64,000 nucleotides of DNA from Capnocytophaga bilenii. GTDB lineage: Bacteria; Bacteroidota; Bacteroidia; Flavobacteriales; Flavobacteriaceae. The DNA is taken from the NCBI RefSeq assembly GCF_017565765.1, contig NZ_JAGDYP010000001.1:152358-216357 (forward strand). The letters are read 5' to 3'. The translations under genes and the position numbers were made by a program. Of this stretch, positions 26,367-33,529 are shown piece by piece (position 1 is the first letter of the stretch; each line of letters begins with the position of its first letter). Below the pieces are notes generated by a model. That model saw only the letters and a program-made list of their open reading frames with translations, made no database searches and was not told the origin of the DNA.

Positions 26367-27059
26367 CTAATTAACAAATTCCCTAATTTCCCTCTTAGCC
26401 GCAGTGCGTTCCTTCTTATAGCTCTTCTCTACGTAAGTGCTTTTGAAGTCAGAGCCATTAAAGGTACGAACAGGATTGCCCCGCTGCACTTGGGTGTGAT
26501 TGTTCCAATGGTTTTGCGCTTGCTCGGCAAGTTGCCGAAGCTCTATTTCAGCGAGCTTTTCCCTCAGACGGTTGAGGGCGAGCTTCTTATTGTCGAGTTG
26601 CGAACGCGAGTCCTGCGCAAATACGCTGACACCAGTAGGCAGGTGGGTAGCACGTACTGCCGAATTTACCTTGTTTACATTCTGTCCGCCATTGCCTTGC
26701 GACCGAGTAGTTTGGAATTGTACATCGCGCTCCGAGAAAGGCTGGCGTTGCAGTTGGTTAAGTTCAAAAACGCCTATATACCAATTGCTTCGCTGGTGGA
26801 ATTTGCGAAAGGTGCTCTTGCCAACCCAACAAACCGTACCGAGCCAACTTTTCAGGAAATCCGATAGCTCCTTTCCTTTAAGTTGTAACGTAACCGATTT
26901 TATAGTCAGATTAGCATCGCCTTCCTCTCGGCTGAGAATAGTATAGTTGATACCTGCTTGGGTAGCCTCTTGCAAAAATATTTTCAGTACTTTAGCTACC
27001 ACCCATTGGCATTCTAAGGGACCACGCCCTGCGGTGATTTGTATGATTTTTTCTTCCAT
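26367..27059 (-). CDS. prfH: Peptide chain release factor homologue PrfH
   Basis: 230-aa class I release factor homologue that keeps the catalytic domain with GGQ (RSQGNGGQNVNKVNSAVRAT) but lacks the codon-recognition domain of RF1/RF2. In the PrfH-RtcB pair it frees peptides from ribosomes whose 16S rRNA is cut near the decoding centre, so that RtcB can re-ligate the rRNA. The N-terminus KIIQITAGRGPLECQW and the basic C-terminal tail are typical. The start at 27059 was chosen; an ATG at 27086 is also possible and would overlap the small upstream gene by 14 bp. Confidence 0.93.
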   Translation of the reverse strand: MEEKIIQITAGRGPLECQWVVAKVLKIFLQEATQAGINYTILSREEGDANLTIKSVTLQLKGKELSDFLKSWLGTVCWVGKSTFRKFHQRSNWYIGVFELNQLQRQPFSERDVQFQTTRSQGNGGQNVNKVNSAVRATHLPTGVSVFAQDSRSQLDNKKLALNRLREKLAEIELRQLAEQAQNHWNNHTQVQRGNPVRTFNGSDFKSTYVEKSYKKERTAAKREIREFVN

Positions 27060-27072
27060 TTTTTCTTTTATT

Positions 27073-27291
27073 TTATAATTGCACATATGGCTTGCACTCT
27101 AAAAGCATCTCCCCTATTTCTATTGCTGGGGTGTGATACTTAAGGGGGGCAATCTCTTTCAGTGGAGTGCGTTTGTACTTTTCCTTAGGTGTATAGTGCT
27201 TTTGATATTGATTCCACGAATAACTACCTCCATAGATTTTACTATTGCGAAGACGAGAAACGCCTTCGGGGGTAATATATAGATTTCCCAT
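27073..27291 (-). CDS. Small protein of the prfH-rtcB operon, unknown
   Basis: 72-aa soluble, basic and Tyr/Lys-rich protein (GGSYSWNQYQKHYTPKEKY) with no signal peptide and no recognised family. It ends 13 nt before the prfH ATG, so it is the first structural gene of the RNA-repair operon. Composition and spacing look genuine. It could be an RNA-binding accessory factor, but that is conjecture. Confidence 0.65.
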   Translation of the reverse strand: MGNLYITPEGVSRLRNSKIYGGSYSWNQYQKHYTPKEKYKRTPLKEIAPLKYHTPAIEIGEMLLECKPYVQL

Positions 27292-27326
27292 TTTTCAATT
27301 GACAATTAATAATTAACAATTTAATT

Positions 27327-27459
27327 GCTTCGGGAAAATGTGATAGGAAGATGTCCTAAAAATTCTATTTGTGAGGAAAAACAAAAAGCCCGAAGCGGGT
27401 GCTTCGGGCTCTTCTATATTTTATACTATTATTCTAATCAAGCAGATACGCCACGAAGC
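27327..27459 (-). promoter_or_regulatory. Putative transcription attenuator before the prfH-rtcB operon
   Basis: Four complementary segments follow each other on the minus strand: GCTTCG inside the leader ORF (27454-27459), CCCGAAGC in the first terminator arm (within 27401-27410), GCTTCGGG in the second arm (within 27387-27396), and CCCGAAGC at 27327-27334. Segments 2 and 3 form the terminator. Pairing 1-2 (6 bp) and 3-4 (8 bp) would dissolve it. This is the layout of ribosome-mediated attenuation. The mechanism is an inference. Confidence 0.5.
27387..27410 (-). terminator. Leader terminator before the prfH-rtcB operon
   Basis: Perfect 10-bp GC-rich stem AGCCCGAAGC with its complement and a 4-nt loop, followed on the minus strand by TTTTGTTTTT. 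It lies 27 nt after the leader ORF and 95 nt before the first structural gene. Confidence 0.85.
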
Positions 27460-27512
27460 GTTACCTTGTGCAAAGGTAATACAGATGCGATATGTAACTT
27501 GATGTAGGTCAT
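27438..27512 (-). CDS. Leader ORF of 24 codons
   Basis: ATG at 27512, TGA at 27438-27440. The peptide begins MTYIKLHIAS and ends VTLRGVSA. The ATG lies about 46 nt after the predicted transcription start and the stop 27 nt before the terminator. Segment 1 of the putative attenuator lies on its Thr-Leu-Arg codons. No run of one amino acid is present, so a simple amino-acid sensor is unlikely. Small size makes coding uncertain. Confidence 0.5.
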   Translation of the reverse strand: MTYIKLHIASVLPLHKVTLRGVSA

Positions 27513-27564
27513 TTCTTCGTGTGTATTTATAAGGTTAAACAATGATTTGTTCGTAATTCGGCGG

Positions 27565-27594
27565 CAAAGGTACTACTATTTTTTGAATTAGCAA
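27565..27594 (-). promoter_or_regulatory. Promoter of the prfH-rtcB leader and operon
   Basis: Minus strand: TTG (27592-27594), 19 bp spacer, TACCTTTG (27565-27572), an ideal match. A second TACCTTTG without a -33 element lies inside the leader ORF at 27471-27478. Confidence 0.8.
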
Positions 27595-27615
27595 GAAAAA
27601 AAGAAGAATTATTTT

Positions 27616-27779
27616 TTAAATAGTGTTGTTCCCTAAATAGTTAAACATAAATTTATAAGCTATATTTCTGTTGGCTTGTTCTGAAAGTTCTTTTATAAGC
27701 TTATCTTTTTCAGCATTGGTTAGTTTTTTTTAGCTTCTTTTTTAGCGGGTTTAGCTGTTTTTGTAATTAATGTCTGCAT
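27616..27779 (-). pseudogene. Small lysine-rich gene broken at an A8 tract
   Basis: From the ATG at 27779 the frame runs 19 codons (MQTLITKTAKPAKKEAKKN) and stops at 27720-27722, just after eight consecutive A residues (27724-27731). With one extra A the frame continues as LTNAEKDKLIKELSEQ to a TAA at 27616, giving a 54-aa protein that looks like normal coding sequence. It may be a pseudogene, a sequencing indel, or a gene expressed by slippage on A8. It is the last element on the strand of the RiPP-like cluster, 102 nt after the M50 gene. Confidence 0.6.
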
Positions 27780-27881
27780 AGTATTTTAGTTTTTGTGGTT
27801 ACACAAGGTAATAATAAAATCTGAACAAACAAAAATCTATATATAATTCCAGATTTCTACCAATTCCAGAAACAAGAATAT

Positions 27882-29054
27882 TTATTTTTTGCAGAAAATT
27901 CCCTTTAAAAAGCTGAACAAGAGATAAAAGAATAGCATTGGTACAATCAACTCACCAAATGATACCAAACTAATGGTAGCGTCCTTATTACATAAACTTT
28001 TAAGGAAATGATATAAGTTTTGAGGGAAATGTAATATAGAGTTAGGATTCTTAAATAGTACATAATACACAAACAGTACAATAAAACTATAGCTTATTAA
28101 ACCGTAGACTAATAAGAGAAAATCTATTTTTGTCCACTGTACCTTTTTACCTTTGATCATTCTAAAAATATCACCTATTTTGCGGAAAGAGTGTTGCAAA
28201 AGGTTAGGTTTATTTGTAATATCTGAGAGTATCCAATAACCATCGCTTCTGAGAAATGGATTGAGATTAAAAAAAGTATGTAAACAAACAATAATAGCAA
28301 TGAGAGTTAGACTTATTTGTCCTAACAATAACCCTACTAATGAGAGCAAGGTACAGAAAATGATTTCAAAATACATTCCTGCACAATTTACTACCACCCG
28401 TTGCCATTTCTTGAGTCGCCATACATCAGTAACATCGGCAAAATAAACAGGAGTAAACAAATAGAAACCACCGCCGATTCCTCCGTGTTCTGCCCCAAAA
28501 TGGCTTGCTGCGGTAGCGTGCCCCAATTCGTGAAAAGTAACACTTATAGCCATTACCACCAAAAAGAAAATAACACTTTCTTGCACCTTAAAACTCTTAT
28601 AACCATCTAAAAGTAAATAAAGCTCTGTACCTATCACCATTGTACAGACGAATAAGATAAGCCAAGCGATTTTCTTGCGAAAAAGAAAATGTAGTGAAGG
28701 GGTGATTTTAGCAATAAAACGCTTGCTAAAAATGATAAAACTCAGCTTGAGATAAGAAGGCTTTTGATAAGGTTTTATTTGTTCTTCTTCGCCTTCTAAC
28801 AATCCATACTTTGAGAGTTTGTTGTAAAGAAGAAAGTGCAGAGCGTTTACTGTAATTTTCTTTTCAGATTGCTGGTTGTGTAGTTCACATATCTCTTGAA
28901 GAGAGCGCTCATTGTCTATGAGTGAAAGGAGGTCATAAGTATCTTTATTAATTTTCAAATAATGCTTATGCAGAATGTTACAGAGAATAAACTCTTTATC
29001 ATTGAGTTTATTGAAAGTAATAGAGGGATTAATATGTGGAATTTTGTTTTGCAT
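27882..29054 (-). CDS. PqqD-like domain fused to M50 membrane metalloprotease
   Basis: 390-aa protein. Residues about 1-90 resemble a PqqD-like peptide-binding domain (RiPP recognition element): LNDKEFILCNILHKHYLKIN, then DTYDLLSLID and SLQEICELHN. The rest is an integral membrane site-2-type zinc protease with HELGH (175-179) and the second metal motif NPFLRSDG (265-272), plus about seven helices. Such proteins (YydH-like) process or help export ribosomally made peptides. The ATG overlaps the stop of the terpene-cyclase-like gene (TAATG), so translation is coupled. A longer TTG start at 29063 is unlikely. The peptide-processing role is inferred from domains and neighbours. Confidence 0.85.
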   Translation of the reverse strand: MQNKIPHINPSITFNKLNDKEFILCNILHKHYLKINKDTYDLLSLIDNERSLQEICELHNQQSEKKITVNALHFLLYNKLSKYGLLEGEEEQIKPYQKPSYLKLSFIIFSKRFIAKITPSLHFLFRKKIAWLILFVCTMVIGTELYLLLDGYKSFKVQESVIFFLVVMAISVTFHELGHATAASHFGAEHGGIGGGFYLFTPVYFADVTDVWRLKKWQRVVVNCAGMYFEIIFCTLLSLVGLLLGQISLTLIAIIVCLHTFFNLNPFLRSDGYWILSDITNKPNLLQHSFRKIGDIFRMIKGKKVQWTKIDFLLLVYGLISYSFIVLFVYYVLFKNPNSILHFPQNLYHFLKSLCNKDATISLVSFGELIVPMLFFYLLFSFLKGIFCKK

Positions 29055-30883
29055 TAGAAGCAAAGGGCTTTAAGGGCGTAAGCCGTAGTGAGTGTCTCGC
29101 TTTTATAAGGTTCGTACGCTTTAGGTTTGATAAAGTTCATAGCTTCCCACCCTCCTGAGGTATTTTGAGTAGCAAGCAATTGTTCTTGTAGGATTATAGC
29201 AGTTTCATCAGTGTTGAGCTCCACTATTTTTAAAGTGAGTAAAGCCAATGCCATAGAAAGGGGTTCAGTAGGGAGATGAGTTTTGATATAATTGACAGCA
29301 CGCTGTATCTGGTTTGTATATTGCTCACTAAAGCGTTGCAACAAGCGCACACAAACGTAGGTACCATAGTAATTGCCGTAATACCAACGACTCTCCCAAT
29401 AACCTTCTTCTTTTTGTTGAGAGAATAAATAACTAATTCCTTTTTGGATAACAGACAAATAGGCTTTTGGGTCATAAAGATGGAGCGCATACAAGAAGTT
29501 AGCTACTACCTCCACATCGGGACCTGTACCCCATTTGCTTTCGTTGAAATACTGTTGCTTTTGCTGTAGAGGTGTTAGGTTGTGCTTGGGAAGTATCCAC
29601 GTTTCAATGCCCCCATTAGTACAACTTCTACTATTGATAGCCGTATCAATAGCTTTTTGACAGTGTTTAGCAATCTCATTTTTTTTGCCAATATGAATAA
29701 AGAACTGCATTATTTGCGCCAAATCGTCAATATCAGGAGCTATTTCTTGTACGGTGGGGAAGTATTGCCAAGCGCCTACTTCGGGATTGATACGCTCCAT
29801 AAAGTAGTGGAATTCCTCCTCAAAGAAAGATGTAATGAGCAACTGGTATCTTTGAGCAATAGTGTAAAAGCAATCGTCTAATAGTGCACGTTGGAAAGTA
29901 TCGGAGGTATGTACCTGACAAGTGTTCTCAAAGCCTTCGGCATTACCTAAGTACATAGTATGTTTCAGTTCAGCGTAATGCTGACGGAAATCTTGCTCTA
30001 TAAAATCCAAGCCTTTGTGTATGCTCTCTTCTTTTACTGCTGAAAAATTGAAAAGAGGGGCAGTGTTTCGTTCTTTTTTAAGAGCAAGAGTGGTTTTTAG
30101 CACAGCCAAATAACCTTCGGTAGTTTCCAAATAGCTTTGGATAGTAGTAATCATCTGCTCAATAGTTTGCAACCACCCGCTGGGAATATTCAGCTCAGCT
30201 ACTACAGCTTTTGCCTTTTCAAACTGTACAATAGCTTCTTTCAGCAAGTCTTGCCCCACGCCTTTTACAAACAAATATTTGTGAAGGGTGTTAGGCTCGT
30301 GTTGTTCTCCTGCAAAATCTACTTTTTGTTGCAACTGATAAACCGCCCAATTGAATTGCCCACGGCGTACATCACGTGCAAAATCTTTTACATCGTCATA
30401 GAGCTGAAACCCTACTGAAAAATAGCGATGTGACAATAATAATTTTTTGTACACAGCCTTGTTTTGAGAGTTGCTTTGTACCCAAAGGCTATCTATAGCT
30501 ATTTTGCCAAAAGCCGACTTGTCATCTGCTAAGCTACTGTATTGTTCAAACGATACTTCAGGGGTAGTAAGTAGGCGTTTTTCGGTTTGTATAGCCTTAA
30601 AGTACTCCGCTTTACGCTGTTGCCATAGTTCCCAAAAAGACGATTTATAACCGTAAATACTTGTGAGAATTTTAATTGTTTCCTCTTGCAAGGCAAGCAT
30701 CTCTACCAATGCTTTTGTATCGCCCTCATCTACTAAGGCGTCTAAACAAAGCACTGCATTGTAATAGGTATAACCTGCTTTGCAGAGCAAATGTAAGGTT
30801 TCAGCACTTATAGTAGGAAAATAAGTGTGAAACAAAGCGGGGTAATGCTTGTAAAATTCTGGAGATTTCTCAGTGGAGGGCAT
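29054..30883 (-). CDS. Terpene synthase/cyclase-like fusion protein
   Basis: 609-aa soluble protein with two halves. The N-terminal half is all-helical, with Asp-rich motifs DALVDEGD (48-55) and DDVKDFARD (163-171) followed by RRGQFNW, like class I isoprenoid synthases. The C-terminal half has DIDD (384-387), the DxDD acid motif of class II terpene cyclases, and squalene-cyclase-type repeats (EEGYWESRWYYGNYYGTYV, SGGWEAMNF). Such fusions make cyclic diterpenoids in other organisms, but no prenyl-diphosphate supply genes lie beside it. It starts 4 nt after the CarboxypepD_reg gene and overlaps the M50 gene by 1 nt. Whether it acts on a free isoprenoid or on a peptide is unknown. Confidence 0.75.
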   Translation of the reverse strand: MPSTEKSPEFYKHYPALFHTYFPTISAETLHLLCKAGYTYYNAVLCLDALVDEGDTKALVEMLALQEETIKILTSIYGYKSSFWELWQQRKAEYFKAIQTEKRLLTTPEVSFEQYSSLADDKSAFGKIAIDSLWVQSNSQNKAVYKKLLLSHRYFSVGFQLYDDVKDFARDVRRGQFNWAVYQLQQKVDFAGEQHEPNTLHKYLFVKGVGQDLLKEAIVQFEKAKAVVAELNIPSGWLQTIEQMITTIQSYLETTEGYLAVLKTTLALKKERNTAPLFNFSAVKEESIHKGLDFIEQDFRQHYAELKHTMYLGNAEGFENTCQVHTSDTFQRALLDDCFYTIAQRYQLLITSFFEEEFHYFMERINPEVGAWQYFPTVQEIAPDIDDLAQIMQFFIHIGKKNEIAKHCQKAIDTAINSRSCTNGGIETWILPKHNLTPLQQKQQYFNESKWGTGPDVEVVANFLYALHLYDPKAYLSVIQKGISYLFSQQKEEGYWESRWYYGNYYGTYVCVRLLQRFSEQYTNQIQRAVNYIKTHLPTEPLSMALALLTLKIVELNTDETAIILQEQLLATQNTSGGWEAMNFIKPKAYEPYKSETLTTAYALKALCF

Positions 30884-30887
30884 AAGG

Positions 30888-32030
30888 CTATTGGTTTATA
30901 AATTCTTGTTCTTCTTTAGTAAGTAAAAACTTGGCTTCACCTTGTTTGTGAGGGGTAACATATTCAAAGAAAGGTTTTTCTACGTCTATTCTATTTTCTT
31001 TTTTGATATGTTTGTTTTGTATACCTGTGCGTAAAAAAGATTGCTCAATATTAACATAATCTTGCTTGTTTTCATATTGAAACATACAACTCATTTTTAC
31101 AGTAAATGAACTGAATAATAATTTATTGTTGTAAGAGGTAAAGGTAAGTTCCCAAGTACCTTTGTTATTAATTGTCTTGTAAGGTATCTTTTTCTTTTCT
31201 GACACTCCGCCTCCATTTATAGGTTTTTGAGTGAATGCAATTCGCTTGATAGCATTAGTAGTATTATCAAAATAAATTACTGAATTTGCAAACTGTATTA
31301 TTTCTTTATTGGAAATAATGTCAAAATCAAAAGTTACAATAGTATGCTCTTTATCCTTTTCTACTTTTTTGATTTGTATATTCTTAGCATTATACAAAAA
31401 CACTAAATATGGATTGAGATGAAGATACTGAAAAATAAAAGTAGGTTCAAAAAATGCTGAGTTGGTTCCGTCTTCAAAATTAGAAATCTTGGAATAATCA
31501 GTATTTTTAAGGTGTATTTGTACATTTTTATTTAATGGTTCTTTAAACTGATATACATAATTCTTACTCCACCAGTCTAATTGTATTTGGTAAAGTCTTC
31601 TTAGAGTATCATTTCTTATCATCTTTTCTCGATAAGTACACTCTACTATCTTTGCCTTAGTGTCATATAATTTGAAGTAATTATCTAAAACATACTTCAC
31701 TCTCTTCTTCAAATCAAAATTGTACAACACAACTTCCTCAAGTTGTATTTCCTGAGGATTGAGATAAATGGTTGCTTTAGCAAAGGTTTTATCTGTGAAA
31801 TTCTTCTTAGTAGTATAGCCTATATGACTCAAAGTAAGGGTATCATTTTCTAAAGCTATTTTTGCCTTGCCTTCTTCGTTAGTAATAGTACCATTGATAG
31901 AGTTAGTATAATATATCTCTACATTACTTATAGGTAGTTTTGTTGTAGCATCAAGTACAGTAAATTCTATTGTTTGAGCTTGTAATAAACTTTGCAACAA
32001 GAAAAATTGTATTAGTAAAACTTTTTTCAT
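30888..32030 (-). CDS. Exported protein with CarboxypepD_reg-like domain
   Basis: 380-aa protein with signal peptide (cleavage near LLQAQ), then a carboxypeptidase-regulatory-like beta-sandwich (residues about 22-95: FTVLDATTKLPISNVEIYY, NEEGKAKI, LSHIGYTTK), then a region rich in beta strands of about 270 residues with no named domain. The fold is common at the N-terminus of TonB-dependent receptors, but no plug or barrel follows. It may act in the periplasm or at the outer membrane. It is the second gene of the RiPP-like cluster, separated from the precursor by a stem-loop. Confidence 0.75.
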   Translation of the reverse strand: MKKVLLIQFFLLQSLLQAQTIEFTVLDATTKLPISNVEIYYTNSINGTITNEEGKAKIALENDTLTLSHIGYTTKKNFTDKTFAKATIYLNPQEIQLEEVVLYNFDLKKRVKYVLDNYFKLYDTKAKIVECTYREKMIRNDTLRRLYQIQLDWWSKNYVYQFKEPLNKNVQIHLKNTDYSKISNFEDGTNSAFFEPTFIFQYLHLNPYLVFLYNAKNIQIKKVEKDKEHTIVTFDFDIISNKEIIQFANSVIYFDNTTNAIKRIAFTQKPINGGGVSEKKKIPYKTINNKGTWELTFTSYNNKLLFSSFTVKMSCMFQYENKQDYVNIEQSFLRTGIQNKHIKKENRIDVEKPFFEYVTPHKQGEAKFLLTKEEQEFINQ

Positions 32031-32047
32031 ACTTAGGTTTTAAAATA

Positions 32048-32074
32048 AGGGTAATTAGAAAAACTAATTACCCT
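32048..32074 (-). terminator. Stem-loop after the precursor-like gene
   Basis: Perfect 11-bp stem AGGGTAATTAG with its complement and a 5-nt loop, starting 13 nt after the stop codon. On the minus strand TATTTTAAAA follows, so it may be a leaky terminator, making precursor transcripts outnumber those for the enzymes. Confidence 0.7.
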
Positions 32075-32087
32075 ATGCGAAATTAAT

Positions 32088-32282
32088 TTATTTAATAGGA
32101 AGTGTTGCTCCAGCTTTACCTCCTAAATTCCCATTGTGGTCTACAGTGATTTCGAAATTCATAGAACCACCACTAAACCATCCCATTTCATAGCGCTTTT
32201 CAAGTTCCTCTACTTCAAACGCATTTACTAAAGCTTTTTCGTCAAGTTCGCAAACTTGCACTTTGTTTACATTTGTTTCCAT
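32088..32282 (-). CDS. RiPP-precursor-like small peptide
   Basis: 64-aa peptide with an acidic helical first half (CELDEKALVNAFEVEELEKR, residues 11-30) and a Gly-rich second half (GWFSGGSMNFEITVD, NGNLGGKAG) ending in LPIK. A leader rich in Glu/Leu followed by a short distinct core is the usual layout of precursors for modified peptides. Gly-Gly at 38-39 or 54-55 could mark a cleavage site. It heads an operon that includes a PqqD-like/M50 protease, and a stem-loop separates it from the enzyme genes. No homologue is recalled; the assignment is by composition and context. Confidence 0.65.
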   Translation of the reverse strand: METNVNKVQVCELDEKALVNAFEVEELEKRYEMGWFSGGSMNFEITVDHNGNLGGKAGATLPIK

Positions 32283-32354
32283 AACTATTTATATTTTAAT
32301 ACTGGAAATCAAACCTTCTTTGGGTAAGGCATCGGTTACTTCCTTTTTACGGTA

Positions 32355-32387
32355 CAAAGATAAAAAAAAGTATTTTAAAGTAACCAA
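32355..32387 (-). promoter_or_regulatory. Promoter of the RiPP-like cluster
   Basis: Minus-strand TATCTTTG (32355-32362) with TTG 22 bp upstream; leader of about 70 nt before the precursor ATG. Confidence 0.6.
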
Positions 32388-32592
32388 AAGAAAAGTACAG
32401 TTTAACTCAAATTTAACAGTAAATTCTTTATAAAATAAACAATTATAAAGGTATAACCTACTAAAATTTTTAGAACTCTTAATTTTTTGAAAAAATGATA
32501 TATTTGGAAGGTATTTTTTAACAACTTAGCAAAGATAGTGTAAAAACGATACTTATCTAATGATAATATAGAGAATATTTTTACAAAAAAAA

Positions 32593-33360
32593 TCAACATA
32601 AAAAATACTGAATTGAATTTAGAATAGCCTTTTGCCCCTCTGCTACATAGCCTGTAGCTGAGCGGTATTTAAACATAAATGCTGTGAGAAACGAATATAA
32701 TTCTCTATCTATAGTTAAGCTAGTGCGTTTAGTGTGTTCTATTAGTACATTTATCTTGTTATATTGGTCTTCTGAAATAATACTGATGTTATTAATGCTG
32801 TTTACCGGTATCTCGATGATATGCAATAGCTTAAAAATGTATAATTTATCTTGACATAGCATAAAGGGAGGTAAGTGATACAATAGTCTCGATACTTGCT
32901 TTACCTTTTCCAAATAGGCAAAATCTTCTTCGCTCATCTCTGCCAAGAGCAGTTGTTGCGCTTGTGTAGTCCTATTGATAATGTAGTATAAATAATAGAA
33001 AATTATTAGCAAATATGGGACAAATGTGGTAATAGACGTTAACAATATATAACCAAAAAGCAAGTAGGGTACGCTATCCATTTGGCGTATCACCTCAAAA
33101 TCGACACACAGCCCAATAAACAGAAAAGGGATTAACGAAAAGACAATTGCTGCGATTATAAAAATATATTTTATAATTTTTTTTCGCTTAGTGATGTATA
33201 GCTGTCTCGCCTCAGGTAGAGGAGAAGACGGGCAATAGGCTTCTACTCGCTTTTCAAAATCATTTCTGTGCGTTTTTAAATACCATTTAAGGGCATAAAA
33301 AACACCTACTGCTACCGAAAGCTCTATAGTAAAAAATAGAATCTGATCCATAAAAAACAT
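32593..33360 (-). CDS. Membrane protein, unknown function
   Basis: 255-aa protein with an N-terminal transmembrane segment (about residues 8-25), two more near 60-85 and 98-130, and a soluble C-terminal domain of about 120 residues (KLYIFKLLHIIEIPVNSI, INVLIEHTKRTSLTID). A second ATG three codons in is equally likely as start. It lies between the tRNA-Ser terminator and the RiPP-like cluster. No family is recognised and no link to either neighbour is evident. Confidence 0.65.
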   Translation of the reverse strand: MFFMDQILFFTIELSVAVGVFYALKWYLKTHRNDFEKRVEAYCPSSPLPEARQLYITKRKKIIKYIFIIAAIVFSLIPFLFIGLCVDFEVIRQMDSVPYLLFGYILLTSITTFVPYLLIIFYYLYYIINRTTQAQQLLLAEMSEEDFAYLEKVKQVSRLLYHLPPFMLCQDKLYIFKLLHIIEIPVNSINNISIISEDQYNKINVLIEHTKRTSLTIDRELYSFLTAFMFKYRSATGYVAEGQKAILNSIQYFLC

Positions 33361-33395
33361 AAAAGCTAAAACAATATCGCATTGTTTTAGCTTTT
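33361..33395 (-). terminator. Terminator after tRNA-Ser
   Basis: Perfect 15-bp stem AAAAGCTAAAACAAT with its complement and a 5-nt loop, 11 nt after the tRNA 3' end. It precedes the membrane-protein gene. Confidence 0.85.
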
Positions 33396-33406
33396 CATAA
33401 ATTTTG

Positions 33407-33491
33407 CGGAGAGAGAGGGATTCGAACCCCCGGAGGTGTTACCCTCAACGGTTTTCAAGACCGCCGCATTAAACCGCTCTGCCATCTCTCC
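33407..33491 (-). tRNA. tRNA-Ser (anticodon TGA)
   Basis: 85-nt class II tRNA with acceptor arm GGAGAGA/TCTCTCC, a long variable arm, T-loop GGTTCGAATCC and anticodon loop CTTGAAA (anticodon TGA, reading UCA/UCG). The discriminator is G and CCA is not encoded. Confidence 0.95.
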
Positions 33492-33529
33492 ATTTGCACC
33501 AATATTCCGTTGTTTCATTTATGCGGGTG

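Follow-up and report, generated by a model that had tools for sequence, protein, structure and literature searches.

A Capnocytophaga operon with a fused prenyltransferase–cyclase, predicted to make a terpenoid lipopeptide

A 64,000-nucleotide stretch of Capnocytophaga bilenii DNA (the window; host genome 2.73 Mb, G000 in our set) carries on its minus strand an operon for a ribosomally synthesized and post-translationally modified peptide (RiPP). Its product is very probably a terpenoid lipopeptide, in which the sole Trp of a small precursor, W35, is prenylated, the chain is cyclized and the leader is removed by a protease. Read from 32388 to 27882, the operon comprises a promoter-like site, the precursor gene, a hairpin, a gene for a CarbopepD_reg_2 protein, a gene for a 609-residue fusion enzyme and an M50 protease gene (Table 1). 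The proposal is based on predicted folds, motifs and the conservation of the gene set, the leader and the Trp, from which we infer every reaction step, the prenyl donor, the cleavage site and the order of events.

In the proposed route, the succession of promoter, precursor and hairpin would yield precursor in excess over the enzymes. The N-terminal (P) half of the fusion enzyme would transfer a C15 or C20 prenyl group to the indole of W35, and two ordinary polyprenyl synthases encoded in the same genome are possible sources of the donor. The C-terminal (C) half, through the acid of its DxDD motif, would protonate the prenyl chain at its distal end and fold it into rings. Carrying this lipid, the precursor would be drawn to the membrane, where the M50 protease, with a leader-binding-like domain of its own, would cut off the leader near its LExRxE motif. 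The CarbopepD_reg_2 protein would act outside the cytoplasm, in transport, reception or self-protection, and would not be essential to the chemistry.

The fusion enzyme, the protease and their operon

The structure model of the 609-residue protein is confident and contains both a trans-prenyl-synthase fold and a one-domain class II cyclase fold. The nearest solved folds to the P half are geranylgeranyl diphosphate (GGPP) and polyprenyl synthases, and those nearest to the C half are one-domain cyclases, including MstE, which was solved with a geranylgeranyl-dihydroxybenzoate substrate. Pfam matches the C half to SQHop_cyclase_C (E 1.2e-14); polyprenyl_synt falls below its cut-off (E 0.054), and the model supports that assignment of the P half despite the score. 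Across an alignment of 25 proteins, the only columns conserved at 90% or more are D48, D52, Q160, D163, D164, D167 and D171, plus the start Met; seven of the 25 rows lack a C half, so C-half columns cannot reach this level. A preliminary description of the stretch, made from the sequence alone, had reported class I-like Asp-rich motifs together with a DxDD motif in this protein and had proposed fold prediction of both halves as a check. DxxxD, DDxxDxxxD and DxDD are all intact, and the predicted isoprenoid-synthase and cyclase folds retain their metal and DxDD sites.

The M50 protein, described earlier as a PqqD-like/M50 membrane protease, is borne out in both parts. Its model (mean predicted local distance difference test score 85.2) shows long helices and a PqqD/RRE-like N-terminal domain (Foldseek E 0.012), Pfam finds Peptidase_M50 (E 7.6e-7), and the HExxH motif and a distal D274-G-Y-W are invariant in 20 of 20 M50 proteins. 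The top four Foldseek matches are TbiB1 with leader peptide (E 0.012–0.05, probability 1.00), followed by SpoIVFB; lower matches include more leader-binding RiPP enzymes, namely heterocyclases such as TruD, and SkfB. Leader recognition in this cluster therefore seems to sit on the protease.

The minus-strand operon of precursor, stem–loop, exported CarboxypepD_reg protein, 609-residue protein and M50 protease given in the preliminary description agrees with the gene calls and Pfam, and both tight junctions are as it stated: a 4-nt gap between the CarbopepD_reg_2 and fusion genes and a TAATG overlap between the fusion and M50 genes. Its observation of the operon is confirmed. We took the ATG of this TAATG as the M50 start; the list of open reading frames (ORFs) has it begin further upstream, at the TTG at 29063. 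The promoter-like site follows a Bacteroidetes-type consensus, TTTG-N17-23-TAnnTTTG, which matches 19 times in the window (4.9 expected) and only here within 27000–33500. The hairpin (−14.4 kcal/mol, z −3.5) was equalled in stability by none of 200 shuffles; terminator-like sites within 27000–33500 number seven, against 3.4 expected. No component of the operon was found in 27616–27881, where a tiny ORF (27720–27779) directly follows the M50 gene and ends behind a run of A, with a longer frame open behind it.

Table 1 Features of the operon in the window
Feature	Position	Strand	Basis or remark
M50 intramembrane metalloprotease with N-terminal RRE/PqqD-like domain	27882..29054	-	Pfam, NCBIfam, model, Foldseek
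HELGH metal-binding motif	28518..28532	-	H178, E179 and H182 invariant in 20/20 M50 proteins
RRE/PqqD-like domain, three strands then three helices	28806..29021	-	Model and Foldseek
609-residue protein	29054-30883	-	Open reading frame
C half, residues ~283-609, one-domain class II terpene cyclase fold	29057..30037	-	Predicted fold
DxDD motif D384-I-D386-D387	29723..29734	-	Profile alignment to DVDD of squalene-hopene cyclase
P half, residues ~4-262, trans-isoprenyl-diphosphate-synthase fold, putative Trp prenyltransferase	30098..30874	-	Predicted fold
Q160 and second Asp motif D163D164xxD167xxxD171	30371..30406	-	Asp motif in 23/23, Q160 in 22/23 P domains
First Asp motif D48xxxD52	30728..30742	-	Present in 23/23 P domains
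Exported protein with CarbopepD_reg_2 domain, 380 aa	30888..32030	-	Pfam E 6.5e-11
Hairpin with T-rich tail, attenuator-like (putative function)	32048..32074	-	Separates the precursor gene from the maturation genes
Precursor peptide, 64 aa, leader end ELEKRYE then MGW...	32088..32282	-	Leader motif common to precursors beside homologous enzymes
W35 codon, sole Trp of precursor, predicted terpenylation site	32178..32180	-	Comparable position in relatives
Promoter-like site, Bacteroidetes-type TTTG-N17-23-TAnnTTTG	32355..32388	-	Pattern search; ~70 nt upstream of precursor start

Precursors, acceptor residue and gene-set conservation

The 64-residue peptide had been called precursor-like, and it is more than a chance ORF, since its leader motif recurs beside relatives of the enzyme. 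As a control, an LExRxE-type motif was found in 29 of 437 small same-strand ORFs near the enzymes and in 2 of 2086 other small ORFs of the loci, one of these two being an additional precursor in L023. An NCBIfam search with five precursors gave no match, and a sub-threshold Pfam match of the window peptide to Acb1 (E 0.23) was regarded as chance.

We compared precursors from the window and from one locus per cluster kind; the counts are not independent events. Pattern matches in L033 and L060 (fusion clusters), L087 and L089 were judged not to be precursors and were left out. In fusion clusters, 18 of 21 precursors have a Trp at +3 to +7 after LExRxE, W35 being at +3. Clusters with a prenyltransferase only have Tyr at +4 in all ten precursors, and none of the ten has Trp within the first seven residues; by eye, Tyr is also at +4 in L119 and L120, and no precursor was found in L121. 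The Tyr that replaces Trp, often followed by a Cys, was seen in L027, L028, L034, L065, L066, L087, L088, L119 and L120. Two Hymenobacter plasmid clusters contradict a simple acceptor rule: they are prenyltransferase-only, yet their precursors carry a Trp at position +2/+3, and the leader end varies. Where an acyltransferase-like gene takes the place of the P domain next to the leader and M50 protease (L089, L090), none of 17 precursors has Trp at +3 to +7, one L090 precursor having Trp near its end, and none of seven precursors read by eye in L122–L124 has Trp there.

Matches to all or half of the 609-residue protein occur in 3 of 20 genus genomes (one unbroken, two in pieces), 7 of 395 order genomes, 11 of 395 phylum genomes and 12 of 197 genomes of family f5; with relatives as queries and the query genomes counted, the L033 protein matches in 4 of 92 genomes of f38 and the L031 protein in 5 of 79 of f31. 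These samples overlap, and several matches are prenyltransferase-only or cyclase-only proteins. Among the named genomes only C. leadbetteri DSM 22902 has a match, and plasmid searches added two Hymenobacter records and one Gemmatirosa record. Precursor, enzyme and M50 gene recur as a set in five of the phylum's families (f1, f5, f29, f31, f38) and on the one Gemmatirosa and two Hymenobacter plasmids. At 30 loci with a P-domain match, five of which are a near-identical cluster in close relatives (L024, L059, L061–L063), an M50 gene lies nearby in 24. An LExRx[EQ] precursor was found by pattern in 22, variants were seen by eye in L071 and L072, and the pattern found none in L037, L038, L063, L064, L068 or L069. 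The M50 protein itself matches in 11 of 395 order genomes (in G291 a broken fragment only), including all seven with a match to the fusion enzyme.

This recurrence bears on the idea that the 609-residue protein makes a free terpene or terpenyl diphosphate, the peptide genes sharing its operon for some other reason. The P half does have both Asp-rich regions of chain-elongating synthases, and its nearest solved folds are enzymes of that kind. We nevertheless consider a free product very unlikely: the three genes recur together across families and replicons, the Trp position tracks the fusion enzyme, and the same leader and protease are paired elsewhere with acyltransferase-like genes.

Of the four-gene set in the preliminary description, precursor, enzyme and M50 protease held together in most loci, whereas the CarboxypepD_reg gene proved loosely linked. 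Its product, with a start that looks by eye like a signal peptide, has full- or near-full-length relatives (57–65% identity) in 6 of the 20 genus genomes, the window's own included, and every one of the 20 has a match, if only a short one, to its common domain. Full-length homologues stand without the fusion gene in G010, G013 and G018, and the window's genome has a second copy adjoining apparent TonB-receptor and SusD genes (named by sequence starts and lengths). For this one gene, the outcome that the preliminary description named as refuting, homologues found apart, is thus partly seen. The view of this protein as a pathway enzyme was rejected as the main idea, as it occurs standalone; it may serve in reception or self-protection. 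At two loci of the genus, L037 (C. leadbetteri-like) and L038, the fusion gene is decayed and no precursor or M50 match was found, but each retains at least one CarboxypepD_reg copy: L037 has one, and L038 has a full-length copy, a broken one and a distant one.

Several points weigh against terpenylation of the precursor by this enzyme. Three of the 21 fusion-cluster precursors lack Trp at the expected place (L026 and L060, with Trp near the C terminus, and L070, with no Trp and a Cys at +4). An intact M50 gene is missing from six of the 30 P loci: the decayed L037 and L038, L029 (where the contig ends about 1.5 kb on), L064 (with an M50 fragment), L068 and L069. No Foldseek match of the M50 protein reached E ≤ 0.001, and its leader-binding domain is assigned by fold only. 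The link to the characterized enzyme ChrPC, discussed below, is by architecture only. Q160 is also found in ordinary prenyl synthases and is thus no proof of Trp specificity. Finally, 5 of 18 C domains have DxDS, the other 13 having DxDD, and this would suit a reading in which both folds were recruited for non-isoprenoid peptide chemistry, for example as a leader-dependent side-chain cyclase; alpha/alpha-toroid folds do work on peptides in lanthionine cyclases. DxDS alone does not signal lost function, however, because the solved one-domain cyclases 8pak and 8paj have it at the same aligned position, and all 23 P domains compared keep their metal motifs, which makes such recruitment highly improbable in our judgement.

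The fragmented enzyme gene in two other genus genomes is a further adverse point and raises the question of whether the window copy is a relic of a cluster no longer in use, as only 1 of 20 genus genomes has the gene unbroken. We think this unlikely: all four window genes are open, their motifs are intact, and the promoter-like site and hairpin are present. Terpenylation at W35 followed by cyclization remains the reading that we prefer.

Some loci show further variation. Other tailoring genes accompany the cluster in L031 and L033 (radical SAM/SPASM) and in L026 (radical SAM and P450). L070, on Gemmatirosa kalamazoonensis plasmid 2, combines a P–C fusion and an M50 gene outside Bacteroidota with a precursor-like ORF without Trp, whose end resembles a PEP-CTERM sorting signal. 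At L069 (7211–7832), a prenyltransferase-like gene stands with two small ORFs that end in VPWGQT and VPWS and have what is presumably an NHLP-type leader; no M50 match lies in the 17 kb covered. L025 (9270–10388) encodes a stand-alone C-half protein with DxDD, near a PhyH-like gene and a 2743-residue protein, in a different kind of cluster.

Putative lipid-attaching enzymes beside the same leader and protease

An M50 profile search of family f5 gave matches in 25 of 197 genomes. Twenty-two distinct matches were strong (E of about 1e-50 or lower), one of them broken by stops (G825:C23), and five weak ones (E 1e-4 to 5e-4, 47–75 positions) were excluded as fragments or other M50 proteins. Every one of the 21 unbroken strong matches adjoins a gene for a putative lipid-attaching enzyme: a P–C fusion in eight cases, a P domain only in eight and an LpxL-like protein in five. 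Five of the eight fusions belong to the near-identical cluster, one of these being in two ORFs, and the P-only gene of L119 is in two pieces.

The LpxL-like proteins (L089, L090, L122, L123, L124) are assigned as acyltransferases with modest confidence from sequence matches. PF03279 scores barely above its 22.3-bit cut-off in L089 (22.9), L124 (23.9) and L090 (27.2); Pfam gives no match for L122 and L123, which are linked to the group by a profile of L089 and L090 (E 3.4e-25 and 1.9e-25). L090 has 14 tandem precursors, with FabF/FabG-like genes (named by sequence starts) upstream. The cyclase half looks exchangeable as well: L067 and L033 share the core start TKPWICG and have P halves 61% identical, but their C halves are 24% identical and have DxDS and DxDD, respectively, resembling a natural cyclase swap. 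This pair is ready material on what sets the ring pattern.

These pairings suggest that the LExRxE leader and the RRE-M50 protease may form a dedicated chassis for lipidated RiPPs, a proposal to which we give even chances. Different lipid-attaching enzymes would be swapped in, namely a P–C fusion (terpenyl-Trp), P alone (Tyr at +4, a new acceptor for the fold) or an LpxL-like enzyme (fatty-acyl peptides), and lipidation would bring the peptide to the membrane and make it a protease substrate. If true, lipidated peptides of three classes would arise from one protease/leader family, one class being prenylated on Tyr by an enzyme of the trans-isoprenyl-diphosphate-synthase (trans-IDS) fold.

Relation to known systems

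The best NCBIfam families for the M50 protein are the daptide (NF041824, E 1.1e-37) and YydH/LiaK (NF058609, E 1.2e-20) proteases, yet it scores far below both curated cut-offs (130.1 of 300 bits and 74.2 of 225 bits), and none of the other known daptide or epipeptide genes was seen in the operon. MstE, 8pak and 8paj are one-domain class II cyclases like the C half but are stand-alone proteins, and the ligand in the MstE structure is a small prenylated aromatic rather than a peptide. ComQ and PalQ are trans-IDS-like peptide Trp prenyltransferases, but no cyclase half is mentioned for them in the passages at hand; the precursor of PalQ carries an NHLP domain and a Trp at its C terminus, and the second Asp-rich motif, present in the window protein, is missing from ComQ (PMC10853753).

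Literature searches on squalene-hopene cyclases with RiPP or M50, and on terpene cyclases with a polyprenyl synthetase and a precursor, gave no title describing the operon among those listed, nor did a search on Capnocytophaga with prenyl or RiPP among the matches listed. The passages drawn from PMC8549736 and PMC12715784 hold nothing on this system beyond a reference to Hubrich et al. In the listed titles and the passages of a 2026 review (PMC13290415) that cites Hubrich et al. 2024 (Chem 10:3224), a paper itself outside this scope, neither Capnocytophaga nor the M50/leader set is named for the pathway.

The preliminary description knew of M50 proteases in RiPP clusters and of fused diterpene cyclases, but not of both together. 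RiPP maturases that fuse a prenyltransferase and a cyclase have in fact been published, and the passages of the review name ChrPC and NctPC (PMC13290415). The NctPC cyclase resembles MstE, as the window C half does, but its prenyltransferase has an ABBA fold in place of the trans-IDS fold (PMC13290415). ChrPC is a fusion of a trans-IDS-like prenyltransferase and a cyclase; its P domain prenylates an internal peptide Trp with C10–C20 donors and its C domain cyclizes the chain, and all characterized trans-IDS-fold enzymes are said there to take Trp (PMC13290415). The window has a trans-IDS-like fold with both Asp motifs, a class II cyclase with DxDD and a neighbouring precursor with an internal Trp. 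Between the two options first offered, a terpenoid-decorated peptide or a cyclase fold recruited for peptide modification, the former is favoured because of the Trp just after the leader in most fusion-cluster precursors and the reviewed ChrPC chemistry (PMC13290415), and the original interpretation is supported. Because ChrPC has been described, the architecture is known and the window protein is a new member of it. The operon adds an unbroken Capnocytophaga-like member to the pathways that build ring-folded terpenes on ribosomal peptides, in a compact four-gene form testable in E. coli. Beside these systems, the protease/leader chassis with exchangeable lipid-attaching enzymes may be the new element here and the part most worth follow-up.

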